A stretch of DNA of 39,965 nucleotides from an uncultured Lachnospiraceae bacterium (GTDB taxonomy: Bacteria; Bacillota; Clostridia; Lachnospirales; Lachnospiraceae), in assembly GCA_947570615.1 (NCBI GenBank), contig CANOVJ010000036.1, positions 1-39,965 on the forward strand. The letters run 5' to 3'. The position numbers and the translations under genes are program-made. The notes below the pieces were generated by a model. It saw only the letters and a list, made by a program, of their open reading frames with translations. It searched no databases and had not been told where the DNA came from. Shown here piece after piece: positions 18,126-39,921 of the stretch. Every line of letters begins with the position of its first letter. Positions within the stretch are counted from its first letter, which is position 1.

Positions 18126-19439
18126 TTATTCCACCCACCTGACCACATCGCCCTTTGCAAACTCCCTGTCCGCATAGCTTATGACTCTGGAATCGCTCTC
18201 CAGAGCGGGAGCCTCCAGCGCCGTCCAGGATTCGTTCCGGTCCAGCACCTTAACCATCACTTCCTCCACATAATATTCGGATCCAAGGATCCCTTCCCGC
18301 TCCTTCACCACATAGACATAGTTTCTGTTTTTACTCTCATAAACTGTGCCGGTGGGAACACAGCGGCCGTATTTTTCGCCTCTTTCCGTGCGCTTCATCG
18401 CGCCGGAAAGCCCGGGAAAGCCCGTATCCTGCGGCAGATCAAAAAGTATTTCATAGCCTCCTGGCGTAGTCTGGCTTTCGGAGAGATATCCCACCTGCGC
18501 ATCCAGCTCCCCGCCGCTGCCGTCCAGCCTAAGTAACACCTCGTCCCCATAGCCCACATATTTTTTCTGCTCTTTGTCAAGCGTCACCTTAAACTGACAG
18601 GGTACGCTCTCGTCTGTCATCATCATGGCCGCCGCATCCGGCGCCCTGCTCCCCGCACCCACAAAGATATCCGTGATCATGCCCCGGCCTTCGGCTCTCA
18701 CCTTTCCTTCATTGTTTAACACTTCCTGATAGACCGACATCCCCTCCCGCAGATCCCCCATCTGAGACTGCAGGAGGGCAAGGGCGGCGTCCGCATCTTC
18801 CGGCATCAGAATATCCTCCACAGCCCTTCCCGCGTCCTTTACCACACGATCCCGCTCCCGCATGGCGTCCGCCTCCTCATAGGCGGCGCTCTGCAAAGCC
18901 TCCTCCAGCGCTCTGCGCTCCTGTTCGCTCACATCCTCCGCATTCTCCAGATCCTCCAGCGCCCGGACGTATCGGTCCGCGGCCCGGCCCACATCCGTGT
19001 CCTTCTGCCTTGCCGTGATATCATAGTCCTCTCTCGCCCGGGCCTCCTCCAATTCTCTTCTCTGCTGTGCAAGAGCCCTGTTTTCCACAATGGCGTCGGC
19101 CTGTAGCTGCAGCTCATCGATGGCCGACTGCTTCTCCTCCATGATCGCCCCCAGATCCTCCAGGTCCACGGTGAAAAGCACATCCCCCTCCTCCACCCGA
19201 TCGCCCACATGCACCAGCACATCCTTCACCCTGAGGCCGGCCAGAGCCGAAACCGCCTTCTTACCACCCTCCACAACGATCCCGTCCGCCTCCACAATAT
19301 GCTCGATATACTTCTCCTCGGGCGTCACCGTATTCACCACCGGAAGCCCTGTAGTATACACACTTTTCGAAACCAGCGTGCAAACCCACATCCCTGTCAT
19401 AAACAGCACAAGGCCAGCCAGCACCTTTTTTTTTCCCAT
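18126..19439 (-). CDS. HlyD/MacA-type periplasmic adaptor-like protein
   Basis: The 437-residue protein has an N-terminal membrane anchor (about 5-25) and a split biotinyl-lipoyl domain (EADGIVVEG and LVHVGDRVEEGDVLFTVD). A long charged coiled coil (roughly residues 95-215) and a C-terminal beta-barrel part follow. This is the membrane-fusion fold of HlyD/MacA/YknX. In Gram-positives such adaptors assist ABC exporters such as MacB/YknZ. Here it is the last gene behind two importer-type permeases, an odd pairing. The start was placed at the ATG giving MGKKKVL, with AGGAGG 6 bases upstream. A GTG 33 bases earlier overlaps the preceding stop codon and has no ribosome binding site. Its working partner is uncertain. 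Confidence 0.82.
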   Translation of the reverse strand: MGKKKVLAGLVLFMTGMWVCTLVSKSVYTTGLPVVNTVTPEEKYIEHIVEADGIVVEGGKKAVSALAGLRVKDVLVHVGDRVEEGDVLFTVDLEDLGAIMEEKQSAIDELQLQADAIVENRALAQQRRELEEARAREDYDITARQKDTDVGRAADRYVRALEDLENAEDVSEQERRALEEALQSAAYEEADAMRERDRVVKDAGRAVEDILMPEDADAALALLQSQMGDLREGMSVYQEVLNNEGKVRAEGRGMITDIFVGAGSRAPDAAAMMMTDESVPCQFKVTLDKEQKKYVGYGDEVLLRLDGSGGELDAQVGYLSESQTTPGGYEILFDLPQDTGFPGLSGAMKRTERGEKYGRCVPTGTVYESKNRNYVYVVKEREGILGSEYYVEEVMVKVLDRNESWTALEAPALESDSRVISYADREFAKGDVVRWVE

Positions 19440-19471
19440 AACCTTCCTCCTGAACCCATAACCCAGGGCCA

Positions 19472-20335
19472 CTATTCCTTCAGCCCTGAATAAATAATCC
19501 CCTGCTCCAGATAATCCTGTCCCAGCACAAACACAAAGGCCGCAGGGATCAGCGTAATCACAGACGCACAGAAAGCAGATCCGGCCTGTACCCAGGTGAT
19601 CTGCGGCAAATACAGGGACAGAGGCCAGAGGGATTTATCATCGATAAATGCCATGGGCTGCTCCATCATGTTCCAGCTCTCCAGAAAGCCCAGCACCACT
19701 GCCGAGAGGATTCCGCTTTTCCCCAGAGGCAGTCCCATCCTGAAAAAAATATACCACTCCCTGGCTCCGTCCACCCTGGCGGCTTCGAAGAGCTGCTCCG
19801 GGATGCCGCGAAAGCCCCCGTAGGTCAGAAAAACGGGAAAGGTGGAGAACACCGCGGGCAGGATCACCGCCTGCCGGCTGTTTAAAAGAGAAAGCCTGTT
19901 CAGCACCAGATAGCTGGAAAGCATGGTGACCTGGAAGGGAAGGAGCATCAGCACCACATAGAGAGCGAACAGCGCTCTTCCCGCCCGCAGCTTATACACC
20001 GCAAAGGCCCAGGCCGCGGGTACGCCCACCAGAAGCTGTCCCGCCAGAATACCCGCCGCCATCCTCACGGAATTCCAGAACAGCACAAAAAACTGAGGCG
20101 TCATAAACAGAAGCTTTCCGTAATTCTCAAAGGTGGGATAGTCCGGCATCAGCTTCCAGCCGATAAAGTCCGTACCGTCCATAAATACGCTGGTGAGATA
20201 CCCTCCCAGCTCATACTGATCCATGACAGAGCCGGTGAGCAGGAGAATTACCGGGAAGAATACAAGCGCTCCCGGCAGAATCAGCGCGGCTCTGGTAATG
20301 CCCTTTTGCAGACTTTTTAAGACATTTTCTCTCAT
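19472..20335 (-). CDS. Sugar-type ABC permease (MalG/YcjP family)
   Basis: The 287-residue protein has six predicted helices and the importer EAA loop EAARVDGAREWYIFFRMGLP (about residues 187-206), where the ATPase docks. The sequence fits the CUT1 carbohydrate permease family (MalG side). It starts 11 bases after the partner permease. There is no ATP-binding gene in the operon, so a shared MsmK/UgpC-type ATPase elsewhere would be needed. The substrate cannot be told from sequence. Confidence 0.85.
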   Translation of the reverse strand: MRENVLKSLQKGITRAALILPGALVFFPVILLLTGSVMDQYELGGYLTSVFMDGTDFIGWKLMPDYPTFENYGKLLFMTPQFFVLFWNSVRMAAGILAGQLLVGVPAAWAFAVYKLRAGRALFALYVVLMLLPFQVTMLSSYLVLNRLSLLNSRQAVILPAVFSTFPVFLTYGGFRGIPEQLFEAARVDGAREWYIFFRMGLPLGKSGILSAVVLGFLESWNMMEQPMAFIDDKSLWPLSLYLPQITWVQAGSAFCASVITLIPAAFVFVLGQDYLEQGIIYSGLKE

Positions 20336-20346
20336 TACGTATCCCT

Positions 20347-21240
20347 TCAGGCTTTATCCCAGACTCTCTGTAACAGCAGTATGATGACCAGCAGAAATCC
20401 CCCGGTGCAGACTGCTGCTGCCGCCATTTTGTCAAACTCCAGATTCACAAACCAGTTGTTGAACAGGTGCTGGAGCAGATAGATGCTTTTGTGGGGATAG
20501 GCTCCGGCCACCAGATAAGCTTCCCTGTAAATCTTAAAGGAATTCAGAAAGGACAGGATCACGATGGTATAAAGGCTTCCCTTAAGATTCGGCAGAACGA
20601 TAAACCAGAGACGCTGAAGGCTCCCCGCGCCGTCCACCCGCGCCGCCTCGATCTGCTCCACCGCAATGTTCAGGATCCCGGCCAGCCAGAGCACCACGGT
20701 ATACCCGGTGTTCTTCCAGATATAGCTGCCCACCAGCACCCAGAATGCGGCTTCCGTCCCCAGATAATCCGTACGGATCTCTCCCCACAGCCCCGTCATC
20801 TCCCCCAGCCGCGTCAGAAACAGATTCAGAAATCCCTGCTTATAAAAGATCATCTTCCAGACCATGACGATGGTCGCCGTAGGCATGGCCAGGGGAAACA
20901 GATAAACGGACCTGATCAGTCCCGCTTCCTTCAGTCTGCTTAAGGGCCATGCGATCAGAAAGCCGATCAGTACCAGCAGAGGAATGCATACCAGCGTGAA
21001 CCGCAACGTATTTGCCACCGCAATCTGAAAAGCCTGATTGTGAAAGATCGTCCCGTAGTTGGCCGTGCCCACAAACTCTCCTGTCACCGCCGTGACAAGG
21101 GATCTTCGAAGCACATCCAGGAAGGGAAGCAACACAAAGAGCGCCACTCCCAGAAAGCTGGGAGCCATGAAGCTTAAAAAGGCCCCCCGCTTTCTCAGTT
21201 TCATACGGTTTATCCGATTCGGTTTATGCGGCTTTTTCAT
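20347..21240 (-). CDS. Sugar-type ABC permease (MalF/UgpA family)
   Basis: The 297-residue protein has a basic N-terminus, six helices and an EAA loop EAARVDGAGSLQRLWFIVLP (about residues 204-223). It is the MalF/UgpA-type partner of the next permease, with which it would form a heterodimeric membrane channel. It begins 13 bases after the large binding lipoprotein. AAGGAAGAG lies before the ATG. Confidence 0.85.
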   Translation of the reverse strand: MKKPHKPNRINRMKLRKRGAFLSFMAPSFLGVALFVLLPFLDVLRRSLVTAVTGEFVGTANYGTIFHNQAFQIAVANTLRFTLVCIPLLVLIGFLIAWPLSRLKEAGLIRSVYLFPLAMPTATIVMVWKMIFYKQGFLNLFLTRLGEMTGLWGEIRTDYLGTEAAFWVLVGSYIWKNTGYTVVLWLAGILNIAVEQIEAARVDGAGSLQRLWFIVLPNLKGSLYTIVILSFLNSFKIYREAYLVAGAYPHKSIYLLQHLFNNWFVNLEFDKMAAAAVCTGGFLLVIILLLQRVWDKA

Positions 21241-21253
21241 TTTCTCTTCCTTA

Positions 21254-23656
21254 TCATTCCGACAAATAAATGTCCACGCTCTGCTTGATCATCTTCACCG
21301 CCTCCTCCAGGCTGCACGTTCCCCGCATATACTCGCTGCCCGCGTTGTACACGGCATTCTCCAGCACACTGTCCGCCAAATAAGGGGTGGAGACGCTCTC
21401 CATCCAGCCCAGCACCTGCGCGCGCTGCTCATCCGAGAGCATGTAGATCTCCATTCCAAAGGAGGTTCCGTCAGGACTCGAGGAGCCGACAGAGCTGAAC
21501 ACGCCCTCCTCGCTGATCCATTCCTCATTGATGTCATACATTTTCGGAAACGCCCCTCTGTTTATGGAAAATCCATTGTAGAGATTGCTCTGGACTTCGC
21601 TGCCCAGCAGCGTTCTGAGCATCCCCTTCGCGCTCTCCATGTTGGCGGAGGCCGCATTGATTCCGACCAGGGTTTTGGGGATAAAGACCTTCTCGCTCAT
21701 GCCGCTCATGGGCAGGATCACATCCTCCTCAAAGCCTTCCACCTTCTGAATGGAAAACATCATACAGATTCCCGAGTGATAATACGTGGACCCGAAGGCA
21801 ATCTGCGACTCTCCCGCCAGATATCCCATCTCATCCGGCGTCCTGAAATAGTCGGATTCTTCCCTGGTCATTCCCAGATGTTCCATAAAGCTGGCATTGC
21901 TGTTCATGTAATCCTCCACATACTTTGCGGGAAGCCCATCCATCTGGGCGTCGTAGATCCGTTTGCTCTGCTTTAAGAACTCCCGCACAGCCTCCGTATC
22001 CAGCTCCCCGGACGCGGTTTTAAAAGCGGGAACCGAGGTCATGGCAAAGAAACGCATGATGCCCTTTTCCGAACAGATACGCATCAGCGGCTTTTCGGGG
22101 AAATCCGCCCGAAGCTGCTCCATCATATCCGCGATCCCCTCCAGATCATCCGCCATGGAAATATACTTTTCTTTTCCGGCCATAAGCGGAAGCTGAATCT
22201 CACAGGGCAGGGCATACACCCTGCCATCCACGTCAAAGGCGTCCACAATATTCTCAAAGAGCGCATCCTCCCCGGTGAGGCCGTCCAGGCACTGGCGCAG
22301 ATCGAGAAGCATGTTCTTGCTGATATACGAGTCCAGAGGCATATCGTCGAGAATGATCACGTCCGGCCCCTCCCCCGCCATGATCCGGGTGTTTAATTTC
22401 TTGAGGGCGTCGTCCCTCGTGAGGGAGTCCCCCTCTGCGAGCCCCACCTCATAGTCCACATAGACCTGGGGATTGGCGCTCTGGAAAATGCTCACGCCCT
22501 GCCGCAGCGTGTCGTTCTCCCTGAGACTGTACACCTTAAGCCGCTCATCAGGCACCGTTGGGATATCGGGATCGTACGTAAAGCGCGCCACCTTTCCCCC
22601 GTAAAACGCCGCCAGAAATTCATTGTCCGGCAGGGCGGTCATCCCCACCAGCGAGTGGACGTAGGCAGGGTTTCCGAAGCAGGAGAGGGCTCCGTCGATC
22701 ACCTGCTCCATGGCGCTTCCCCCGATCACATGCCGGTGCAGCCCCTTTTCCCCCGCGATATAGATCACCCCGTCCTCTCCCGGGAAGAATACCACCTCAT
22801 AGGCGTCTGCGGAGCTGTAGCTTCTGTCCTTATAGTTTTCCTGCACGAAGTCATGCAGAACCTCATCCTCCACATACTCCTTTTTTTCCAGATCATACAG
22901 AAGAAATCCATCATAGCGCTCCGCGTCCATAATCATAATATTTCCCTGGAACTGGATCTGCTCCGGTCTTTTGTCCACCGTCAGAACCTTCTGCGCGCTG
23001 CCATCCTCCTTCGCCTCGTAGATTTCCCCTGCCATCGTGGCGATAAATACCCGCCCCGTTTCGGTTATGGCAATATCGTCAGGAGCATTATCTCCTCCTC
23101 CGGGAATCTCCACGGGAATCTGCGTTCCATCGGGCTTAACCACGAGACACCTGGCGTCTGCCCGGTAGTTCTCCTCATCGGCAGACTGTTCGCTCTGCGG
23201 CTTGTAGATAATCCCGGCTGTGCCGTCCGCCCCGAAGGAAAGGGCGAACACATATTTTATATCCAGCTCCCTGAACCAGCCCGGTTTATCCGGTTCCCAC
23301 TCCTGGCTCTCCGGCGCCAGCGTCATGGTGGTCCCGCTGCCGATATCCGCGGTCACTAAAGAGCCGTCCGTCAGCCGGGTAACTCCGCATAACCTGTTAC
23401 AGAAATCCGACAGGTCTGTAATTGTCTCCACATAACGCCCCATGGCCGTATTTTTCTGATCATTGTCTTTTGCATCCCCGGGCTCTGCGGGCGGCTCCTT
23501 ACCGTCTCCTCCCGCTTCCTCCTCCTTTACACGCTCCTGTACGCCCGTCCCCTCTGCCTCTTTCTCTCCAAAAGGGCTGCCCCCACAGCCGGAAAGCGCC
23601 CCAAAGGCAAGTGACAGCGCCAGAAGGACTGACCACAGTCTTTTTCCTTTTTTCAT
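21254..23656 (-). CDS. Large lipoprotein: propeller-like N-terminal half plus solute-binding domain
   Basis: The 800-residue lipoprotein has a signal peptide ending in the lipobox LSG-C24, followed by an acidic Glu/Gly/Pro linker (25-70). Residues 75-370 form a beta-rich region with repeated short segments such as GRVFIATMAGEIYEA and GVIYIAGEKGLHRHV, suggesting a beta-propeller. Residues 372-800 resemble a type 1 (CUT1) extracellular solute-binding protein, with LNTRIMAGEGPDVIILDD as in sugar-binding lipoproteins. Ordinary family members have about 420-550 residues, so the N-terminal half is an added module. It is first in an operon with two permeases and a HlyD-like adaptor. Its promoter carries paired TTAGAGA boxes shared with the adjacent regulator gene. 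The ligand is unknown. Confidence 0.82.
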   Translation of the reverse strand: MKKGKRLWSVLLALSLAFGALSGCGGSPFGEKEAEGTGVQERVKEEEAGGDGKEPPAEPGDAKDNDQKNTAMGRYVETITDLSDFCNRLCGVTRLTDGSLVTADIGSGTTMTLAPESQEWEPDKPGWFRELDIKYVFALSFGADGTAGIIYKPQSEQSADEENYRADARCLVVKPDGTQIPVEIPGGGDNAPDDIAITETGRVFIATMAGEIYEAKEDGSAQKVLTVDKRPEQIQFQGNIMIMDAERYDGFLLYDLEKKEYVEDEVLHDFVQENYKDRSYSSADAYEVVFFPGEDGVIYIAGEKGLHRHVIGGSAMEQVIDGALSCFGNPAYVHSLVGMTALPDNEFLAAFYGGKVARFTYDPDIPTVPDERLKVYSLRENDTLRQGVSIFQSANPQVYVDYEVGLAEGDSLTRDDALKKLNTRIMAGEGPDVIILDDMPLDSYISKNMLLDLRQCLDGLTGEDALFENIVDAFDVDGRVYALPCEIQLPLMAGKEKYISMADDLEGIADMMEQLRADFPEKPLMRICSEKGIMRFFAMTSVPAFKTASGELDTEAVREFLKQSKRIYDAQMDGLPAKYVEDYMNSNASFMEHLGMTREESDYFRTPDEMGYLAGESQIAFGSTYYHSGICMMFSIQKVEGFEEDVILPMSGMSEKVFIPKTLVGINAASANMESAKGMLRTLLGSEVQSNLYNGFSINRGAFPKMYDINEEWISEEGVFSSVGSSSPDGTSFGMEIYMLSDEQRAQVLGWMESVSTPYLADSVLENAVYNAGSEYMRGTCSLEEAVKMIKQSVDIYLSE

Positions 23657-23687
23657 AATTCCTGACTCCTTTTTGTTCGTTTTCTGT

Positions 23688-23720
23688 AATATAACAGCTT
23701 AATCTCTAAAATTTCTCTAA
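23688..23720 (-). promoter_or_regulatory. Operon promoter with paired response-regulator boxes
   Basis: On minus, TTAGAGA occurs at 23720-23714 and again at 23709-23703, an 11-base period, followed after 9 bases by TATATT (23693-23688). The -35 hexamer at 17 bases spacing (AGAAAT) is not consensus, as expected for a promoter that needs an activator. The predicted leader to the lipoprotein ATG is about 25 nt. Confidence 0.65.
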
Positions 23721-23805
23721 GAAACGTCTGGAATTAACTATTTTGCGCGGCCGCTCAGCTCCATAAAGCCCTTGAACAGATACTACCGAATATAGTAGTA
23801 TTATC

Positions 23806-23838
23806 TTAGAGATCTTTTAGAGGTTTCTGTGGTAGAAT
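23806..23838 (+). promoter_or_regulatory. Regulator promoter with paired response-regulator boxes
   Basis: On plus, TTAGAGA (23806-23812) and TTAGAGG (23817-23823) are again 11 bases apart and 9 bases before TAGAAT (23833-23838). The geometry is identical to the divergent operon promoter. The -35 position (AGATCT) is poor. The leader to the regulator ATG would be about 95 nt and contains the palindrome TGTCCGGACA (23873-23882). Confidence 0.65.
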
Positions 23839-23939
23839 ATCCGAGAAACAAAAATATAGAATGGAGGTATTCTGTCCGGACAGAGATGGACGCTTTCAGG
23901 ACATATCATCTGATACCTGGCAGAAAAGAGGTTGACGAC

Positions 23940-24629
23940 ATGAGGATTTTACTTGCAGAGGATGACAGACAACTCAATCAGACGCTGACCATTTCACTGG
24001 AGCTGGAAGGTTTTACGGTAGATCCCTGTTATGACGGGGAGGAAGCCCTCTATTATGGAGAACAGAATATCCATGATATCATACTGCTGGATCGCATGCT
24101 TCCCCACATGGACGGCACGGAGGTTCTCACCAGACTTCGCAAAAAAGGAATCTCCACCCCCGTAATCTTCCTGACAGCCCTGGGCGCCTTAAATGACAAG
24201 GTGACAGGGCTTGATCTGGGCGCGGACGATTATCTGGTCAAGCCCTTCGAGATCGAGGAGCTCCTGGCCAGGATCCGCTGTATCACCAGACGGCCCTCCG
24301 CTCTGGCCGATGACGACGATGTTCTGACCGTATCGGATCTCACCTGGCATATCAACGAGGATCGGCTCTGCGGGCCCTCCGGAAGCTGTACGCTCTCCAA
24401 ACGGGAGGCGGCGCTGATGGAAACCTTTCTGCGCAGAAAGAACCAGACCCTTTCCAGAAGTCTTCTTCTCTTAAAGGTATGGGGCCCTGACAGCGATGTG
24501 GAGGACGGCAACCTGGACAATTACATCCATTTCTTAAGAAGGCGCCTTAAGGGCGTGGGAAGCAGACTGCAGATCAAAACAATCCGCGGGATCGGTTATC
24601 GTCTGCACGATGGGAGTCCTTATGTATAA
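23940..24629 (+). CDS. OmpR-family response regulator
   Basis: The 229-residue protein has a receiver domain (1-115) with acidic pocket E7-D8-D9 (LLAEDDR), phospho-acceptor D51 (ILLDRMLPHMDG) and the switch lysine in LVKPFE. A winged-helix DNA-binding domain (about 130-225) contains SKREAALMETFLR and IHFLRRRLKGVG. The start is the ATG giving MRILLAEDD, with AGAGG upstream; an open frame 37 codons longer lacks homology and a good site. It overlaps the kinase gene by 8 bases. Being divergent from the lipoprotein-permease operon and sharing its boxes, it is predicted to autoregulate and to activate that operon. Confidence 0.92.
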   Translation: MRILLAEDDRQLNQTLTISLELEGFTVDPCYDGEEALYYGEQNIHDIILLDRMLPHMDGTEVLTRLRKKGISTPVIFLTALGALNDKVTGLDLGADDYLVKPFEIEELLARIRCITRRPSALADDDDVLTVSDLTWHINEDRLCGPSGSCTLSKREAALMETFLRRKNQTLSRSLLLLKVWGPDSDVEDGNLDNYIHFLRRRLKGVGSRLQIKTIRGIGYRLHDGSPYV

Positions 24630-26004
24630 GAAGGTTCACCTGCGGCTTACCGCTCTGTGCGCGGGGATCACAGCGGCCCTCATGGTGGTTATGTCCCTGT
24701 GCTATCTGTATGTATCCGAGACAGGACTCTACAGAAACCAGTATAATTCGTTCAAAAATGATATTAATACCATCGCTACCAACCTGGAGCAGCAGTCCGT
24801 CATTTCCATGGAATGGCTCTCCAAAATGGAAGCCCAGGGAAACTATGCCTTTCTGGTCCTGGACAATGACGTTCCATTTCTCTATAACAGCCTGACCGGA
24901 AACGCCGATTCCCTCAAACACACTGTTCTGAAGGAAAGCCTGGATTTTTACCGGCAGAGCTTTTCCATCGGTTCGGCCCCGGAGGTTCCTCCTTCCCCTT
25001 ACGCGTCTTATCACACGGAATACCGCTTTTCATCGCCCTCCTCCGGAGAAGACTATTTCGGCTCCGTGATCATGATCGAAAAGAGAGCGTCCGTGTTAGA
25101 GATCGCCGTGGTCTCGCCCCTGAGTCTTCTGGAAAAGCAGATTTTTCATCAGCGCGTCCGTTTTTTCTTCATTGATCTGGCCGCGATCCTTCTGCTTGGC
25201 GCTTTTTCCTGGATCTTTACCGGTATCCTTCTAAGGCCCATAGCGGAAAGCCAGCGCAGACAGGCGCAGTTTATCGCCTCCGCCTCCCATGAGCTGCGCA
25301 CGCCGCTGGCTGTGATCCTATCCTCCGCAGAGTGCTGCGCCAACACAGGGCAGGAGCAGAAGGCGGGCTTTCTGAAAACAATAAAACAGGAAGGGCTTCG
25401 CATGTCCCGGCTGATTGAGGATCTGCTCACCCTGACGGAATCCGACGGCCACCACTTTTCCATCCGCAAAAAGAGTGTGGAGCTGGACACTCTCCTTTTG
25501 AATACCTGTGAGGCCTTCGAGGCGCTTGCCCGGGAAAACGCTCTCTCGCTCTGCCTCGCCCTGCCGCCGGAACCTCTTCCCCCCTGTCTGTGCGATCCTG
25601 ACCGGATCAGGCAGGTTCTTTCTATCCTGATACACAACGCCATCAGCTATACGCCGGCGCAGGGGAAAATCCTGCTGTCCCTCTCCTACAGGAGTTCCTC
25701 CTGCAAAAAGGCTCCTGAAAAGAACGTGTTTTACACAGAGCCCGCCCATGAGAAGGATTTGCGCAGAAAGTCGGCCTTTTATCTGTCCGTCTCCGACAAC
25801 GGCATCGGTATTTCCGACGAGGACAGGAAAAAAATATTCGACCGTTTCTACCGGGTGGAAAAGTCCCGCAGCACAAAAGACCATTTCGGGCTGGGGCTGT
25901 CCATCGCCTGCGAGATTGTACACGCCCACCGCGGAAGCATTGCCGTGGCCGATTCGAAGGAGGGCGGGGCCGTGTTTACAGTCGCTCTGCCGGAGAGGGT
26001 GTGA
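24622..26004 (+). CDS. Sensor histidine kinase, partner of the OmpR-type regulator
   Basis: The 460-residue kinase has two transmembrane helices (about 7-30 and 180-205) around an extracytoplasmic sensor of about 145 residues. The phospho-acceptor motif ASASHELRTPLAV and an ATPase domain with N-box HNAISYTP, DNGIGISDEDRKKIFDRFYR and GLGLSIA follow. No HAMP domain is evident between TM2 and the H box. The start is the ATG giving MYKKVHL, with GGGAG 6 bases before it; an ATG 12 bases earlier has no site. Translation is probably coupled to the regulator by the 8-base overlap. The gene ends 12 bases before the convergent helicase gene. Confidence 0.92.
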   Translation: MYKKVHLRLTALCAGITAALMVVMSLCYLYVSETGLYRNQYNSFKNDINTIATNLEQQSVISMEWLSKMEAQGNYAFLVLDNDVPFLYNSLTGNADSLKHTVLKESLDFYRQSFSIGSAPEVPPSPYASYHTEYRFSSPSSGEDYFGSVIMIEKRASVLEIAVVSPLSLLEKQIFHQRVRFFFIDLAAILLLGAFSWIFTGILLRPIAESQRRQAQFIASASHELRTPLAVILSSAECCANTGQEQKAGFLKTIKQEGLRMSRLIEDLLTLTESDGHHFSIRKKSVELDTLLLNTCEAFEALARENALSLCLALPPEPLPPCLCDPDRIRQVLSILIHNAISYTPAQGKILLSLSYRSSSCKKAPEKNVFYTEPAHEKDLRRKSAFYLSVSDNGIGISDEDRKKIFDRFYRVEKSRSTKDHFGLGLSIACEIVHAHRGSIAVADSKEGGAVFTVALPERV

Positions 26005-26016
26005 TGCGAACATTCC

Positions 26017-29000
26017 TTATATAAAATCAAACAGACTCATCTGCACATTTTTCACCGCCTCCTCATCCTCCGCCTTCTGCACCCGCTCCCGCGCGCTGCA
26101 GCTTTCGGGAACCTCCTCAAGAAACCGGGAGGGCTCCTGTCCGCAGACCAGGATCAGCTCCTCCTTCGCCCTGGTCATGCCCACGTAAAACAGACGGCGC
26201 TCCTCCTGCATCTGCGCCGCAGATAATGGGCGCTCCCCGCCGCCAAACTCCAGAGGCATCCTTCCCTTATCCATTCCGTAAAGGATCACCACGGGAAACT
26301 CCAGTCCCTTGGAGCCGTGAAGGGTCATCAGCGTCACCGCGTCCGAGGTGAATTTTCTCCCGCCGTTTCGCCGCACATCCCCCTCCTCTCCGAAGGAAAG
26401 CGTATGGAGAAACGCTTCCATGGTGGGATAAAGAACCGACATATCCATCAGCTTTTTCATGGCCTGCACATCCACAAGGGCAAATTCCGCCGTCCACTCC
26501 TCTAACAGCTTTACGGGACGGGTCCTTTTCACCTTTTTCCGGTACTTTTCGGTAAGGAGGATCCATTTCTCCTCCTCATCCTCCCCAAGCCAGGGACTCA
26601 GCAGCTTTCTGCACAGCTCGTCCCTCTCCTGCCGCCCGTCCTCCAGAATCCGGCGGAAAAAGTAAAGCGCCCCGCGCACCTCCCGCTCCGTCAGGAAATC
26701 CTCTCTCCCCGCCACCAGATAGGGAATCCCCTCCTGCCGCAGGCATTTCTCCAGAAGCGCCGCCTGTCTGTGGGTGCGGTAAAGTATGGCAATATCCGAA
26801 AATCCCCTGACCGGGCGATTCTCCTGCGCGCTGTTTTCATCCGTCTCCAGCATGTCGATGCCGCCAATCTGCCGGTTGATCTCTCTGGCCACAAAGATCG
26901 CCTCCCGCCTCTCATCCTCCGCCGACACGATGCGCACGGGGAAATCCGTCCTTTTCCGGGCCTGCATGGTACGCTTTCCGCCGTCATTATGGGAAATCAC
27001 CCCCAGAGCGGCCTGCAAAACCGACGGCGAGGAACGATAATTCTCCTCCAGGCGAACCGTGGAAAGATCCGGATATTCCTGCGCAAGACGGGCAAACACA
27101 TTCGGATCACATCCCCGGAATCCATAGATGGACTGATCCGGATCCCCGATCACAAACAGCTCCCGGCCTCCCTGTCCCCACTGCATCACCAGCCTGTACT
27201 GGAGCGGATTGATATCCTGGAACTCATCGATAAGCAGACAGGAAAACCTCTTTCGCTGCGGCGCCTCCCCGGGCAGATCCTGAAAAATTTTCAGGGTCTC
27301 CAGAAGAAGGTCGTCATAGTCCAGCGCCCCCGCCTCCCTGAGCAGCTTCTGATAATATTCATACACGCGTCTCTTATCATCCTCCGCCTGCTTCAGGCCA
27401 TTTTTTACCTGGGAGAGCTCCCGAAGAAAGCGGACGGGAGCGTCCTTCTTCTCAAATTCCCCCAGCGCTCTCTGAGCCAGCTCCAGCGTAAGACCCTCGT
27501 CCGCCACCACAAAGCACTGCCCCTCCTGCTGCAGAAAATGACTGCATATGGCATGAAAGGTTCCGATCCATACTCCCGTACCGGGCAGGGATTCCCGCTG
27601 TTGCCTTCGGCTCTGATTTTTACCGGACTCCTGGCTGGTCATCCTGCTCTGCATTTCCTCCGCCGCCCTGTTGGTAAAGGTCACCGCCGTGATCTCCCGG
27701 GGAGATACCTTCCGTTCCTTCAGAAGATGGTGGAGCCTGGCGGTCAGCGTCCTTGTCTTTCCGGAGCCCGGCCCGGCAATAACCGCGATTGCCCGGCCTG
27801 TCTGCTCTACGGCCTTTTGCTGTGGCTCATTCAGACCGTCTGCAAAGCTCTCCTGCGTCTTTTCATCCGCTTTTTCGCACAAATCCGTACCCGTACCGTT
27901 CTCCCTCCTCCCGGGACGGGATTTTTCCGACTTTTCCTCTTTTTTCAGTTCCCGAAGCTCCTGCGCTGAAAAGAAGGACATCTGTCCCTCCAGACTGCTG
28001 ATATCCTCCGCTGAAAGCAGGCTGATCTTTCCATATTCCCCGTCGAACCCGGGGGTTCGTTCCACCTCTCCCCTGCGAAGTCTGCGGATCCCCTCCGCCA
28101 CCAGCGGTCCTGCCGCCCTGCGGATATCCTCGATGGGAATTTCCCTCAGAATGGCAAATTCCGGGCCGAGCGCGCCTGTCATGTACTCGTACCTTTCCGC
28201 GGCCTTTTTTCCGGCGGCGGAGATTCCCATGGACGCTCCGATCACCTCCTGGAGGGGAACCAGGCTTTCAAAAGGGCGTCCCGCAGGAAGCACAAAGCCC
28301 TCCGCCCGGTCCGCAAGCTGCTCCACCCGGTTGAGCACGCCGATGGTTATCTTTTTTCCGCATACCGGACATCTGTTTCCATATTCCGCCGTTTCCTCCG
28401 GCGAAATGCACAGTCCGCATTTCCTGTGCCCGTCAAAATGATACTTCCCCTCCTCCGGGAAAAATTCGATGGTGCCCGCCAGGCCCCTGCCCTCCTGAAC
28501 GGCCCCGGCCAGCCCTTCATAGGACAGCTCTGTGTCAAACAGATTCGCCTCCCGCCCCAGCCTTGCCGGCGAGTGGGCGTCCGAATTGGAGATCAGATGA
28601 AACCGGTCCAGCGCGCCCACCCGCCAGTTCATGGGCGGGTCGGAGGAAAGCCCCGTCTCCAGCGCATGGATATGAGGCGTCAGATCCTCGAAGCATTCCT
28701 CTATCCGGTCAAACCCCGAAAACGCGCCGAACAGGGAAAAATGCGGCGTCCAGATATGGGCTGGCACATAGATTCCCCGGGGAATCATATCCAGCATGAT
28801 CTCCAGCAGATCACGGCATGGAAGTCCCAGTATGGGACGCCCGTCCGAATGGATATTCCCGATCTGCTCCAGCTTCCCGGAGAGCGCCTGCGCCTGCTCA
28901 AGGCCGGGAAGGATCAGAAGACTGTGTACCTTTCTCACCCTGTCGTCCTTTTTATAAATGGAGCTGATCTCCCCGGTCACCACAAAACGGGGGCGTCCCT

Positions 29001-29232
29001 GGGGGATCCCTTCCTTTTCAATCCGGTATTCCTTTTTGAGCACATACAGTCCGTCCTCCGCCGGCTCGAGCTTTTGCGATAGCTCCTCTCTCCAGGCCGG
29101 GTGAGTGAAATCTCCTGTGCCGATGATATGGATACCCTTTTTGCGCGCCCACAGATCAAGATGCTCCGGCGTGCATTCCCTGCTGGTGGCCCGGGAATAT
29201 CTGGAATGGATGTGCAGATCTCCTATGTACAT
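26017..29232 (-). CDS. EndoQ-like PHP endonuclease fused to UvrD/PcrA-type helicase
   Basis: The 1071-residue fusion begins with a PHP metal-dependent nuclease domain (1-260; H7-x-H9, D41/H44, D218-x-H220) and a zinc finger C272-x2-C275/C288-x2-C291, the layout of EndoQ (TIGR00375), which cleaves beside deaminated bases. Residues about 465-1030 form a superfamily 1A helicase: Walker A GPGSGKT, LLIDEFQDINP, DPDQSIYGFRG, LEENYRSS, LMTLHGSKGLEFP and FYVGMTRAKEEL. Sliding-clamp-type motifs QMSFF (417-421) and QMSLF (1064-1068) end each half. The start is the ATG giving MYIGDLHIHS, with GGAG 6 bases upstream; the 42-codon longer frame is basic shadow sequence. It is probably a DNA repair enzyme coupling nicking and unwinding. 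Confidence 0.88.
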   Translation of the reverse strand: MYIGDLHIHSRYSRATSRECTPEHLDLWARKKGIHIIGTGDFTHPAWREELSQKLEPAEDGLYVLKKEYRIEKEGIPQGRPRFVVTGEISSIYKKDDRVRKVHSLLILPGLEQAQALSGKLEQIGNIHSDGRPILGLPCRDLLEIMLDMIPRGIYVPAHIWTPHFSLFGAFSGFDRIEECFEDLTPHIHALETGLSSDPPMNWRVGALDRFHLISNSDAHSPARLGREANLFDTELSYEGLAGAVQEGRGLAGTIEFFPEEGKYHFDGHRKCGLCISPEETAEYGNRCPVCGKKITIGVLNRVEQLADRAEGFVLPAGRPFESLVPLQEVIGASMGISAAGKKAAERYEYMTGALGPEFAILREIPIEDIRRAAGPLVAEGIRRLRRGEVERTPGFDGEYGKISLLSAEDISSLEGQMSFFSAQELRELKKEEKSEKSRPGRRENGTGTDLCEKADEKTQESFADGLNEPQQKAVEQTGRAIAVIAGPGSGKTRTLTARLHHLLKERKVSPREITAVTFTNRAAEEMQSRMTSQESGKNQSRRQQRESLPGTGVWIGTFHAICSHFLQQEGQCFVVADEGLTLELAQRALGEFEKKDAPVRFLRELSQVKNGLKQAEDDKRRVYEYYQKLLREAGALDYDDLLLETLKIFQDLPGEAPQRKRFSCLLIDEFQDINPLQYRLVMQWGQGGRELFVIGDPDQSIYGFRGCDPNVFARLAQEYPDLSTVRLEENYRSSPSVLQAALGVISHNDGGKRTMQARKRTDFPVRIVSAEDERREAIFVAREINRQIGGIDMLETDENSAQENRPVRGFSDIAILYRTHRQAALLEKCLRQEGIPYLVAGREDFLTEREVRGALYFFRRILEDGRQERDELCRKLLSPWLGEDEEEKWILLTEKYRKKVKRTRPVKLLEEWTAEFALVDVQAMKKLMDMSVLYPTMEAFLHTLSFGEEGDVRRNGGRKFTSDAVTLMTLHGSKGLEFPVVILYGMDKGRMPLEFGGGERPLSAAQMQEERRLFYVGMTRAKEELILVCGQEPSRFLEEVPESCSARERVQKAEDEEAVKNVQMSLFDFI

Positions 29233-29354
29233 TTTTTCTCTCCGTTTCTGTTTTGTATATGTCCCTCCTTTATTATCGCCTTTTTTTCCCGTTTTGGGAA
29301 GACCTCTCTTTCCATCGCGCCGGCCGTCACCGCCGCCCGTATGGCGGGAAGGGC

Positions 29355-31748
29355 TCACTCGATTGCCCTGATCCTCTCCACCAGGGAGAGCCTTGCACAG
29401 TACCGGACCGCACAGACCGAGAACACTGCCTGCACAAGAAACAGCGCCAGACCAAACAGCAGCATCTGCGCCACCGGAAAGTGATACGTGATCTTCCCGA
29501 ACGTTCCGATCTGATCAAAGATATCGCAGATAATCCGGCTGCACGCCACCCCGATCGTCAGCGTGGTCAGTATGGTTATCCCCACGTAAAACATACATTC
29601 AAAGGACAGCATACCGGAAAGCTGCCGGCTGCTCATTCCCACGGACTGGAGGATTCCAAATTCCTGCTGCCGGGCCAGAAGACTGGTGATCAGCGTATTG
29701 GCCAGATTGATAAGAGAAAACAGAAATACAAAAATCACGATACCATAAAACAACTTCAATTCCCCCTTAAGATTCGTCCTTAAGGAGGAAACCATGTCGT
29801 CCAGAACGTCTATGAGGACTCTTTCGTCCGTCACCGTGTCGAACAGGGCCCGCCGGAGCTGAGGATCATCCTGTTTCGTGTGAATATTGAGATACGTTGT
29901 AAAGTTCTCAATTTCAGGGTAAAGCATGGAGAGCTCCTCCTGCGGCAGAAGGAAAAACTGAGACGCGCTGCCTGTCTGAATATCCTTTACGATCCCCTGA
30001 ACCGTATAGCTCCTGGTCACTGCGTTGTAGCCGGAAAATGTGATCGTATCGCCCACCTCAAAGGCCGCTCCGTAAACCCCCTCCAGCGTATCGCCTCCCG
30101 GACAGACCAGGATCCCGCCCTTTTCGCGCAGCTCCCGGTAATCGGCGGTTCCGCTCAGAATGTTCTCATCCGTATACAGCTTTGCTGCCTGACTCTCTGT
30201 CAGCCCTCTGATCTCAAAGACTTCCCCTTCAAGAATGGCGGGCACCTGGGCGCAGGTGGTGCTGCAGGCAGTCACATAATCCACGCCGGGAATCCGGGCG
30301 AGCTCCTCCTGCAATGCGGCATTGAGAATATCCTCCTTCTGGATTTCAATGAACTCCTCTCCGCTGTACTGCTCATACGGCAGCCGCAGCAGATAATTAC
30401 TCCTGTCCCCAAACTGGGACAGCGCCATCTCCTTTACGTCTATGGAACCGGCGTAAGCGGACACGCATACAAGCAGAATGCCCGTCAGACTCAGGGAGAG
30501 GGAGGTGACCGCCGCCTTTTTGCGGTTGCGGGAAAAATTCATCCAGGCAAGGCTCGGCATCGAAAGGCGGCGGTGCATCCCCCTGGAAATTCTGCGTCCC
30601 GGATGCTGCGAATACGCGCTGGCCCTCACCGCCTCAATGGCGGACACCTTCCCCGCCAGCCGCAGGGGCTTTCTGGCGGCGATCACCACGACTCCGTACA
30701 TTGTCAGAGAAATGGCAATGGCATATCTGATATTGTCCCTCCAGGACCAGACTCCCGGCATGACGATACAGGCGATAAGCGCCGCGGCCAGAAGCCCCGG
30801 GGGAATCGCCATGACGGTCAGATGGTTCCTCTCCCTCTTTATGATCTCCCGTAACTGTCCGGGCGTGGCTCCAAGCACCTTGAGCCGTCCATATTCCCGC
30901 ATCCTTCCTGAAACCGAAATATAGAAGATATTGTAGATCACCACCGCGCATACCAGTGCGATAATCAGCGCCAGCGCATAGATCTCCATTCCGCTTCCAA
31001 GGTAGATCTCTGTCATTTTAAAATAATTGGAGCTGTAGAATATCCTGTCCTTCGTGATTCCCATCTCCTCGAAAAAGGCGTCGATCTCCTCCTGGAGCCG
31101 GTGGGTATCCATGGATTCGCCCTGCGCAAAGCGGAAACGAAGCTCAAAGTGCGCTTCTTCCCTGCCTGCTGCCGCGGCAGTCTCTGAAATCCAGACCATA
31201 AAGGTACGGCTGGCATTCTCCCTTTCCAGGATTCCCGTAACCGTGTATGTCTCCTCCCCGCTTCCCAGATCCAGCTCGATACGCTGTCCGGTCTCCACAG
31301 GCAGACCACAGGATTCCAGAAAAGCCCGTTCCACACAGATCTGGGATACGCTCTGTGGATAATCCCCGATGATACTTCCGAACTCCATCAGATCGATCAT
31401 TCCCGGATCCACAAAGCTCACGTCCAGATTGGTGTCCCGATAGCGGATAAGCCCACAGCCCGCGGTATATCCCCATTTCTCAAATTCTCCGGCATTCACA
31501 AGCCGTTCTATCTCCTCATGGGACACCGGGCCGCATCCGGCCTGGTATTGCCCTCTTATATGCCTTAGCGTCTCCAGCCTTCTGGCGGAATAGACAAAGC
31601 AGAGCGTCCCCATAAGGCATACCGCAAGGGCGATGGTCAGGATCACAAAAATACTCCGCCTCCTGTCAGACGCCATACTCCGTTTCGCCAGCCTTCTGAC
31701 CACTGTACCCGTATTTTTCTCAAACGGCCATATCATAACTATATCCAC
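29355..31748 (-). CDS. MacB/FtsX-type ABC transporter permease (module 1)
   Basis: The 797-residue permease has an N-terminal helix, an extracytoplasmic domain, three helices, then a second helix, extracytoplasmic domain and three-helix set. That is two FtsX repeats, the C-terminal one with LINLANTLITSLLARQQEFGILQSVGMSSRQL. These permeases work with the ATPase encoded just upstream, either in export or in mechanical signalling to the envelope. The start is uncertain: a GTG at 31748 lies only 1-2 bases from AAGGAGT, while the ATG at 31736 is 13 bases away. The gap to the ATPase stop is 17 bases. Confidence 0.87.
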   Translation of the reverse strand: MDIVMIWPFEKNTGTVVRRLAKRSMASDRRRSIFVILTIALAVCLMGTLCFVYSARRLETLRHIRGQYQAGCGPVSHEEIERLVNAGEFEKWGYTAGCGLIRYRDTNLDVSFVDPGMIDLMEFGSIIGDYPQSVSQICVERAFLESCGLPVETGQRIELDLGSGEETYTVTGILERENASRTFMVWISETAAAAGREEAHFELRFRFAQGESMDTHRLQEEIDAFFEEMGITKDRIFYSSNYFKMTEIYLGSGMEIYALALIIALVCAVVIYNIFYISVSGRMREYGRLKVLGATPGQLREIIKRERNHLTVMAIPPGLLAAALIACIVMPGVWSWRDNIRYAIAISLTMYGVVVIAARKPLRLAGKVSAIEAVRASAYSQHPGRRISRGMHRRLSMPSLAWMNFSRNRKKAAVTSLSLSLTGILLVCVSAYAGSIDVKEMALSQFGDRSNYLLRLPYEQYSGEEFIEIQKEDILNAALQEELARIPGVDYVTACSTTCAQVPAILEGEVFEIRGLTESQAAKLYTDENILSGTADYRELREKGGILVCPGGDTLEGVYGAAFEVGDTITFSGYNAVTRSYTVQGIVKDIQTGSASQFFLLPQEELSMLYPEIENFTTYLNIHTKQDDPQLRRALFDTVTDERVLIDVLDDMVSSLRTNLKGELKLFYGIVIFVFLFSLINLANTLITSLLARQQEFGILQSVGMSSRQLSGMLSFECMFYVGITILTTLTIGVACSRIICDIFDQIGTFGKITYHFPVAQMLLFGLALFLVQAVFSVCAVRYCARLSLVERIRAIE

Positions 31749-37856: not shown

Positions 37857-38972
37857 CTATCTACTTTTGAAAAAAACGCTTACTTCGGCCCCGGAAGGGG
37901 GATTCTCAATCCGCAGCCAGCCGCCATGATGCTCACAGAGCATTTTGCCGGTATAAAGGCCAAGGCCGAAGTGGTCTGCCTTTTCCCTGGTGAAATACGG
38001 GTCAACCGCTTTTTCCAGACTGGTTTTATCAAAACCGGGACCATCATCCGATACAGAAAGCAACAGCCCCTCCTGTGTTTCATCCAGGCAAAGTACGACC
38101 TGCGAGGCAGCATACCGCGTGGCATTTACTATCAAATTTCCGTATACCTGAGAGATCAAATCTCCATCCAATGACAGCGCCGACGAAGTTGTCCGGTTCT
38201 GCATGGAAAAACGCTTTCCTGACCGTTCGCAGATGATTGTTCCGCTTTCATACAAAGAGGCCGCGAGAGCCTTCAGGGGCGTCTGCCGATAGGTGGGCTG
38301 TGTATCTTCCAGCCGGCGCAACTGGCTCATGGTGTCCACATAGTTCTCCAGCCGGGAGATATGTCGCTGCATGGTAACGGCGGTGGTGCGGGTCTGTTCG
38401 TCTCCGCTGGCCTGCAGCATCTCATTGTATCCCTTCAGTACGGTGAGCGGTGTCCGAAGATCATGGGCAAAGGCGGCATTCAGCCGCTTGCGCTCCTCCA
38501 TCTGCCGCCACATCTCAGAGAAGTTCTGGGCCAGGGCCGCCCGCATGGTCTCAAAGGAGGCGCAGAGCTGCCCCAGTTCATCCCCGCTGTGGACGGTGAC
38601 GGTAAAGTCCAGGTCGTTTTGGGAGATCTTTCCCGATGCCAGCCGCAGCTCTGCCAGGGGGCGTTTGAGCTTGTTCCGGTAGAAAAGCAGCGCCGCCCCC
38701 AGGATGCAGAGGGCGGACCACACCGGTGTCGTCACCGTGGGCAGGGCCCGGAGGATGTCCACTGTCCGCTGGTCCTCGGAGGACAAGGGGATTGCATCGG
38801 TGCCGATGTAGGCCCCCTCCCCCAGCCGCTCCCCCCGCTCGTTGGTGAGGTAGTATTTTTCCATGCTGTCCAGGTAGCCGGCGTGGATTTCCCTGATCCC
38901 CATCCCGCACAGGTCGTTGGTCATCCCACAGAGGACCAGGGCCAGAAGGGCGGCGGCGGTGATATAGACCAC
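37857..38972 (-). CDS. Sensor histidine kinase with HAMP, irregular start
   Basis: This is a kinase of at least 371 residues with TM1 at the start, a short extracytoplasmic loop (about 75 residues), TM2 (about 84-103), and HAMP ending LGQLCASFETMR. The H box is FAHDLRTPLTVLKGY, followed by an ATPase domain with NLIVNATRYA, SDDGPGFD and HFGLGLYTGKM. The first standard start is a GTG at 38972, inside TM1. The frame is open 14 codons further, to the stop of the regulator, and those codons read as a basic pre-helix segment (RRRWRALSLRK) with no ATG, GTG or TTG. The true start is thus unclear or lost. GC content rises to about 65% in its 5' half. Confidence 0.82.
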   Translation of the reverse strand: MVYITAAALLALVLCGMTNDLCGMGIREIHAGYLDSMEKYYLTNERGERLGEGAYIGTDAIPLSSEDQRTVDILRALPTVTTPVWSALCILGAALLFYRNKLKRPLAELRLASGKISQNDLDFTVTVHSGDELGQLCASFETMRAALAQNFSEMWRQMEERKRLNAAFAHDLRTPLTVLKGYNEMLQASGDEQTRTTAVTMQRHISRLENYVDTMSQLRRLEDTQPTYRQTPLKALAASLYESGTIICERSGKRFSMQNRTTSSALSLDGDLISQVYGNLIVNATRYAASQVVLCLDETQEGLLLSVSDDGPGFDKTSLEKAVDPYFTREKADHFGLGLYTGKMLCEHHGGWLRIENPPSGAEVSVFFKSR

Positions 38973-39010
38973 CAGGGTCTTCCGAAGGGAGAGAGCGCGC
39001 CACCGGCGTC

Positions 39011-39682
39011 TTAACTACTCCATTTATAACCGCACCCCCAAACTGTTTCAATATAAGCGTGATCTGTGTGTGCGGCAATTTTTGTCCTGATCCTGCGGAT
39101 ATGCTCCGCAACAACACCGCTGTCCCCCTCGCTGTCATAGCCCCAGATCTTCTCGTAAATTCGTTCCTTGTCAAACACCTGCCCTGGATTTTGGGACAGC
39201 AGCTCCACAATGTCAAATTCCTTTTTCGTCACGGGAATTTCCTCTTTTCCATAAAACAGGCTGCGCCGGGCAAAATCTATGGTCAGATCCCCGGTAAATT
39301 TCACGAAAGTTTCCATGCTGTGCCGTGCCTGCCTGCGCAGATGGGCGCTTACCCTTGCCTCCAGCTCCGCAAGGGAGAAAGGTTTCACAATATAGTCATC
39401 CCCGCCGACGGAAAACCCCTTTACTTTATCCGTATCTTCTATTTTTGCGGTAAGGAAAAGGATGGGGCAGTCAATGTGATCCCGGATGCGCCTGCAGACC
39501 TCCAGACCGTTTAAACCCGGCATACTGATATCCAGCAGAATCAGATCCGGCCTCTTTTCTACCTGTTTTAAGGTTTCTATTCCGTCAGAAGCGGTCATTA
39601 CCTCATACCCTTTCCCCTCAAAAAAAGAAGTAAGCATTGTCACAATATCCGCTTCGTCATCCGCTATCAGCAGCCTGTCCAT
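39011..39682 (-). CDS. OmpR-family response regulator (second system)
   Basis: The 223-residue protein has a receiver domain with acidic pocket D8-D9-E10 (IADDEAD), phospho-acceptor D51 (LILLDISMPGLNG) and lysine in IVKPFS. The winged-helix domain contains TKKEFDIVELLSQNPGQVF and HIRRIRTKI, ending in the usual VWGCGYKW motif. The start is the ATG at 39682, which overlaps the lipoprotein stop by one base (TGATG) and has GAGGTG about 8 bases before it; a GTG one codon earlier is less likely. It is predicted to control the exporter downstream of its kinase. Confidence 0.92.
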   Translation of the reverse strand: MDRLLIADDEADIVTMLTSFFEGKGYEVMTASDGIETLKQVEKRPDLILLDISMPGLNGLEVCRRIRDHIDCPILFLTAKIEDTDKVKGFSVGGDDYIVKPFSLAELEARVSAHLRRQARHSMETFVKFTGDLTIDFARRSLFYGKEEIPVTKKEFDIVELLSQNPGQVFDKERIYEKIWGYDSEGDSGVVAEHIRRIRTKIAAHTDHAYIETVWGCGYKWSS

Positions 39683-39921
39683 CACTTTTTCACCTCAATA
39701 TAACGGTTTTCCGTTTGTTCCGGTTCTTTTGTCTTCTCCGTGTCTGACGTAGTTCCGCCTGGCTGGTTTGTTTCGTCCTGTTCCTCAGCCATTTGAGTAT
39801 CTGTATCTATACTGCCAGAATCATTATTTAAGGGTTCTTCACTCTGAGATGTACGGGCACATCCTCCCAATAATGTCAGAAAGACCGCCATACTTATTAC
39901 AACCCCTGTCATTTTGCTCAT
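39682..39921 (-). CDS. Small lipoprotein upstream of two-component system
   Basis: The 79-residue protein has a signal peptide and the lipobox LLGG-C21. The rest is a low-complexity acidic/Thr/Gln-rich tail (S, E, D, T, N, Q and P) without recognisable domains, ending RYIEVKK. It is coupled by TGATG to the response regulator, so it may be a membrane-surface accessory to the sensor. No ribosome binding site is visible before the first ATG. The frame stays open to the end of the window, so the true start might lie outside, although the lipobox distance fits the ATG at 39921. I do not recognise the family. Confidence 0.65.
   Translation of the reverse strand: MSKMTGVVISMAVFLTLLGGCARTSQSEEPLNNDSGSIDTDTQMAEEQDETNQPGGTTSDTEKTKEPEQTENRYIEVKK

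Follow-up and report, generated by a model that had tools for sequence, protein, structure and literature searches.

The region between a two-component regulator gene and a divergently transcribed lipoprotein-permease-permease-adaptor operon, in a 39,965-nucleotide stretch (the window) of contig CANOVJ010000036.1 of an uncultured Lachnospiraceae bacterium, carries two pairs of TTAGAGA boxes that are likely (probability roughly 0.86) to be operators through which the regulator encoded at 23940-24629 activates both promoters. The initial annotation had suggested that this regulator would activate its own gene and the operon, and that suggestion is supported by our comparison of sequences, since five exact sites in the genome lie upstream of genes, the half-sites are conserved, the regulator promoters of relatives are boxed, the motif co-occurs with the regulator, and the operon lacks boxes in five genomes in which the regulator was not found. 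The regulon is new but of a known kind, its sites sharing the geometry of the PHO box and of CiaR sites, and it represents no new mechanism. None of the titles listed by literature searches among open-access PMC papers describes the motif or the system.

Operators and promoters of the divergent region

The features of the locus, in window coordinates, are:

18126..19472, minus strand: HlyD/MacA-like adaptor (NCBIfam RND_mfp, E-value 2e-10, under the curated cut-off)
19472..20335, minus strand: ABC importer permease B, sugar type (Pfam BPD_transp_1; EAARVDG motif)
20347..21240, minus strand: ABC importer permease A, sugar type (Pfam BPD_transp_1; EAARVDG motif)
21254..23656, minus strand: 800-aa lipoprotein (Pfam SBP_bac_8, 26.5 bits, just under the cut-off of 27)
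23688..23696, minus strand: extended -10 of the operon promoter, TGTTATATT (TATATT at 23693-23688)
23703..23720, minus strand: operon-side operator, TTAGAGA-N4-TTAGAGA (half-sites 23720-23714 and 23709-23703, four bases between)
23806..23823, plus strand: regulator-side operator, TTAGAGA-N4-TTAGAGG (half-sites 23806-23812 and 23817-23823)
23830..23838, plus strand: extended -10 of the regulator promoter, TGGTAGAAT (TAGAAT at 23833-23838)
23940..24629, plus strand: OmpR/PhoB-type response regulator, 229 aa (Pfam Response_reg and Trans_reg_C, both over cut-off)
24610..26004, plus strand: sensor histidine kinase, 464 aa (Pfam HisKA and HATPase_c), adjoining the regulator in relatives

The boxes stand as the initial annotation had described them, paired with an 11-base period on both strands, and the gap from operator to -10 is 9 bases on each side of the divergent promoter. 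The whole element, TTAGAGA-N4-TTAGAGR-N9-TANNNT, has two copies in the window and none in 100 dinucleotide shuffles. Both -10 elements are also extended by TGn, on which the initial annotation had not remarked. Its view that neither promoter has a good -35 agrees with our search of 23600-24000, which found no sigma-70-type promoter with a -35, and a promoter of the usual -35 kind was rejected on this ground. Nor does the 18-base box pattern recur elsewhere in the window at 0-2 mismatches, in keeping with the initial annotation, which had noticed no other copy; when 3 mismatches are allowed the count is 3, where 4.5 are expected, and matches this loose are uninformative. Just 5' of the regulator-side boxes an inverted repeat, ATACTAC-N8-GTAGTAT, was seen by eye at 23780-23801; it is perhaps a second operator, and among six aligned relatives a similar repeat is present only in the closest (G006).

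In the mechanism that we favour, a phosphorylated dimer of the regulator would occupy the two 7-mers, which are spaced by one helical turn, in head-to-tail orientation. It would thereby cover the -35 region of a promoter with an extended -10 (the boxes would fall at about -39 to -22, counting from the -10) and recruit RNA polymerase. Both the regulator gene, together with that of the kinase, and the divergent lipoprotein-permease-permease-adaptor operon would thus be activated, and the same element would act at three more promoters, those of a small lipoprotein, a C39-like protein and MurT-GatD. The sequences themselves show the element, the constancy of its geometry, its conservation and the fact that it occurs along with the regulator; we infer from the geometry both that the regulator binds this DNA and that its effect is activation. 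A regulator bound at the same boxes could instead repress, as sites over a promoter could block polymerase too, but neither promoter has a -35 match, the boxes occupy the place of the -35 in fixed phase to an extended -10, and this layout is that of PhoB- and CiaR-activated promoters (in the relevant parts of PMC4415409 and PMC3091779), all of which makes repression improbable.

The regulator and known operator systems

An OmpR/PhoB-type regulator had been noted close to the boxes, and its family assignment holds: the protein combines a receiver with a winged-helix Trans_reg_C domain and has the phospho-acceptor aspartate and the conserved threonine and lysine, while a direct-repeat operator of 11-base period is itself a trait of the family. 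Residues D51, T79 and K101 are invariant in 20 orthologs and residues 188-202 nearly so. The protein is not regarded as a PhoB ortholog, since it scores 168 bits against the NCBIfam PhoB model TIGR02154, under the cut-off of 296, and no phosphate gene was seen among the first genes named at the sites. Elsewhere in the window, a second kinase-regulator pair (37857-39685, minus strand) shares 23% and 32% identity with the present one, and 26017-29358 encodes a UvrD/PcrA-like helicase of 1113 aa whose N-terminal part has a stretch resembling TIGR00375, with a score under the cut-off of that model.

The closest geometric parallel is the PHO box of the PhoB/PhoP regulators, described in the part of PMC4415409 that deals with it as a pair of 7-base direct repeats 4 bases apart, or as two 11-base units, with head-to-tail binding and contact to sigma70. 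The 7-4-7 arrangement is that of the window operators; the half-site, in contrast, is TTAGAGA and not CTGTCAT, and the targets seen include no phosphate genes. The CiaR sites of Streptococcus, given as NTTAAG-N5-TTTAAG in the corresponding part of PMC3091779, likewise have an 11-base period and a spaced -10 at activated promoters, but differ in their TTAAG core (TTAGAG in the window) and in their targets. RR_1586 of Clostridioides difficile, which according to the portion of PMC6222199 on its binding site recognizes DRTTAAGNWWWDRTTAAGNWWW, resembles the present system in being an OmpR-family protein with a direct repeat of 11-base units and autoregulation, and differs in its TTAAG core and sporulation-linked targets. 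All four half-sites in the window read TTAGAG, whereas the CiaR and RR_1586 class has a TTAAG core in both half-sites. A pair of the RR_1586 kind (TTTAAG/TTCAAG type) does stand beside the gene in six of 14 loci of more distant regulators, with a TTATAG pair in one (L040) and none in the other seven; examples of these pair types are few, and the matrix that found them is biased to the TTAGAG motif.

Sites elsewhere in the genome and their predicted target genes

The initial annotation had named a genome-wide motif scan as a check, and in the 4.05-Mb assembly this gave five exact sites, each 5' of a gene; besides the two of the window, contigs 3, 62 and 74 carry a single site apiece. In all five a TANNNT hexamer lies exactly 9 bases 3', and TGn is present in four. 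The contig 3 site precedes the gene for a Peptidase_C39_2-domain protein, that on contig 62 the gene for a 193-aa lipoprotein, and that on contig 74 (L011) MurT-GatD. When TTAGAGANNNNTTAGAGR was searched with up to 2 mismatches there were 25 matches against 97 for the reversed pattern that served as control, so that loose genome matches carry no weight; the TTARAG form with up to 1 mismatch returned just the five exact sites, and its reversed pattern also gave five matches. A copy on contig 64 with one mismatch was not counted, lying just past an ATG in an apparent reading frame. A search of 37 genus genomes found MurT in the present genome alone, and the boxed MurT-GatD may have been acquired or may be a contaminant; the composition of contig 74 is close to that of the window and of the contig 3 and 62 stretches.

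Across a sample of 60 genomes (this one, 35 of the genus and 24 of the order) the strict form of the motif has 41 matches, against 2 for the reversed pattern, and the regulon extends past the regulator-kinase pair and the operon. BLAST to our own references was used to name the first gene lying no more than 300 bases from each of these distinct sites. It is a small lipoprotein gene in 19 cases, a C39-like protein gene in eight, the regulator and the 800-aa lipoprotein in four each, and MurT in one; the other five comprise three lipoprotein-like genes that match none of the references, a VanZ-like protein gene seen in one species only (G030), and the sole site that sits within a gene (G025, contig 5). 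Phosphate genes are absent from the first genes so named, among which the three lipoproteins lack matches. In many relatives the small lipoprotein gene is the first gene of the operon. Its product matches no Pfam family well; that it might have an OB fold is only a guess from weak OB_YrrC matches in 5/18 members (best E-value 0.0067).

Conservation among relatives

Comparison of the intergenic region in related genomes, also put forward in the initial annotation, showed that in an alignment of seven species the two half-sites on the operon side and the first one on the regulator side are invariant. A boxed pair with the same spacing to the -10 lies 5' of all 20 regulator orthologs of the genus (scores 19.6-36.0), and a twenty-first also has one in its own promoter. 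The second half-site on the regulator side is TTAAAG in 12 of the 20, and is weaker than on the operon side.

The fixed geometry is evident well beyond these orthologs. A profile scan with the 800-aa lipoprotein found 125 relatives, and the best 80 of these, which include proteins of Kineothrix alysoides, Parablautia muri and P. intestinalis, were kept and gave 73 loci; with 20 further loci this made 93, picked by protein. When TTAGAG direct pairs were counted there at spacings of 0-30, independently of any matrix, 110 of 120 had a spacing of N5, although the loci are all kin and the counts are not independent. Among these 110 TTAGAG-N5-TTAGAG pairs TANNNT follows at offset 10 in 98, and in the TGn-extended form (TGnTANNNT) in 92.

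A weight matrix was built from 54 sites of the genus, and the 19 loci of the training genomes were set apart; 350 bases upstream of each gene were scanned at a threshold of 20 bits, and genes with less than 150 bases upstream were dropped. Outside the training genomes, matches of at least 20 bits precede 30/37 regulator genes, 24/24 small lipoprotein genes and 40/93 solute-binding protein (SBP) genes, many of the last being internal copies, and the reversed matrix matches none, one and one respectively. The remaining seven regulator genes have no match in the 350 bases scanned. Other genes rarely carry a match (kinase 0/34, permease A 3/46, permease B 0/45, adaptor 0/46). A boxed lipoprotein gene is present in 64 of the 73 loci, and in 46 of the 54 outside the training genomes.

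Co-occurrence of the motif and the regulator

A close ortholog of the regulator is present in 20 of the 60 genomes (this one and 19 at 72-91% identity), or 27 when paralogs to an E-value of 1e-50 are counted. The strict motif occurs in all 20 genomes with a close ortholog and in one of the 40 others (G004), for which Fisher's test gives p = 5e-15. The TTARAG form with TGn has 50 matches in the 37 genomes of the genus, against none for the reversed pattern, and these fall in 22 genomes, namely the 20 with the regulator together with G004 and G060, in the last of which the regulator was later seen as well. In a sample of the family (250 genomes, one per genus, with the regulator called at an E-value of at most 1e-70) the regulator was found in 22 genomes and the TTARAG/TGn pattern in 21 (31 matches, against 3 reversed); the pattern is present in 14/22 genomes with the regulator and 7/228 without it (p = 1e-12), both p-values treating related genomes as independent. 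Eight regulator genomes of this sample thus lack the searched pattern, and seven genomes have the pattern without the regulator.

Twenty of the 24 family-level regulator loci besides that of the window were fetched, and all of them have a kinase and an SBP gene nearby; 17 also have permeases at 45% identity or more. In 17, likewise, the promoter of the regulator or that of the operon has a match of at least 20 bits, and none was found in L199, L201 or L209.

The element might be read by a different regulator or by an alternative sigma factor, with the neighbouring regulator merely linked to it. This would account for the seven genomes just mentioned, and for the C39 gene: close C39 orthologs are boxed in 12 of 12 cases (three more distant paralogs have no box), and three of the boxed ones are in genomes where only distant regulators were found (G004, G031 and G034, 86, 78 and 89% complete). 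Against it stand the co-occurrence in two samples, the boxed promoters of all 20 regulator orthologs, and the five genomes considered below in which the operon lacks boxes and the regulator was not found; the exceptions could stem from incomplete or mixed assemblies. The C39 protein of G004 has a start nearly the same as that in G009. We therefore consider another reader of the element very unlikely, and retain the neighbouring regulator as the protein that would bind it. That the boxes are chance AT-rich upstream repeats without function, an idea that the AT-rich 7-mers and the mismatched matches, no commoner than in controls, might encourage, is rejected on the empty shuffles, with which the 50 matches against none reversed agree.

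Proteins of the divergent operon

The profile of the 800-aa lipoprotein matched 13 distinct PDB sequences, two of which are receptor fusion constructs and were disregarded. Its C-terminal half matches solute-binding proteins, CbpC best, and residues ~160-240 match designed or PQQ-type propellers; on this evidence the protein may be predicted to have an ABC solute-binding C-terminal part and, probably, a beta-propeller N-terminal part. The four operon genes, of which the adaptor gene is the last in relatives, include no ATPase gene. Two TOBE_2 matches elsewhere in the genome could mark ATPases that serve the permeases.

Several relatives depart from this arrangement. Tandem 800-aa lipoprotein genes, in two to four copies, are found in L126, L128, L132 and L140, and in L128 a box lies 5' of each of two copies. 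In one group of relatives two large kinase-like proteins are encoded 5' of the lipoprotein genes (L160, 2277-7809); the L160 pair are hybrid histidine kinases, one with PAS and one with a weak dCache match, and similar pairs are present in L163, L164, L165, L168, L169, L171 and L172.

A BlaI-type operator in genomes without the regulator

Sixteen genomes of the genus have no close regulator, and 11 of them also lack the 800-aa lipoprotein; the other five (G004, G019, G031, G034 and G035) have the operon. The 13-16 kb fetched around these five operons contain neither a homolog of the regulator or kinase nor a box scoring more than 8 bits. All five promoters have instead TTGACA and a pair of GACTA..TAGTC repeats in facing orientation, a BlaI-type operator, and this pattern was not found in the window. 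Genes for BlaI (Penicillinase_R) and an M56 BlaR1-like protein are the immediate upstream neighbours in L241 and L242, with a small gene intervening in L244 (assigned by Pfam for L242 and L244 and as homologs in L241), and are absent from the stretches fetched for L243 and L245. The one blaI promoter examined, that of L242, has a near-identical operator 5' of the gene. The M56 proteins scanned match no penicillin-binding domain, so the signal need not be a beta-lactam. BlaI/M56 homologs also occur inside some TTAGAG-boxed loci (L178:2045-3647 and L122:16064-19778).

The same type of operator is known from Clostridium thermocellum, whose BlaI proteins, according to the relevant part of PMC8457756, bind GACTAT-type repeats, probably as four protomers. 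These belong to a repressor family acting on inverted repeats (up to four protomers), unlike the direct repeats of the window. A tree of both permeases was built from 81 of 99 loci (18 were dropped for missing or short permeases, 20 duplicates had been removed earlier, and the root was chosen by us). The five regulator-less loci form one clade in it (support 0.94), next to L083 and L084 (0.95), which are of the two-component type, and control of the operon thus seems to have been swapped once, from the two-component regulator to a BlaI-type switch.

Implications

The regulon probably answers cell-envelope stress, as the C39, VanZ, MurT-GatD and BlaI/M56 links suggest, and this is the weakest and least sure step of the argument. 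More tentatively, the operon might encode an undescribed envelope-guarding module, in which a propeller solute-binding lipoprotein, a sugar-type importer with an outside ATPase and an HlyD-type adaptor would act together and in which a BlaI/M56 repressor system would on one occasion have taken over from an activating two-component system, with the operon unchanged; such a module may help its kinase to sense.

The analysis provides a regulator, a DNA code and a first list of targets for a system that many Lachnospiraceae genomes conserve. That a BlaI-type operator seems to have replaced it in one sister lineage points to cell-envelope stress, and opens to test what an unusual combination of genes, importer permeases together with an adaptor, is for. 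The TTTAAG-, TTATAG- and TTAGAG-type pairs, which go with differing recognition regions in the regulators, offer a handle on the evolution of specificity in the OmpR family.
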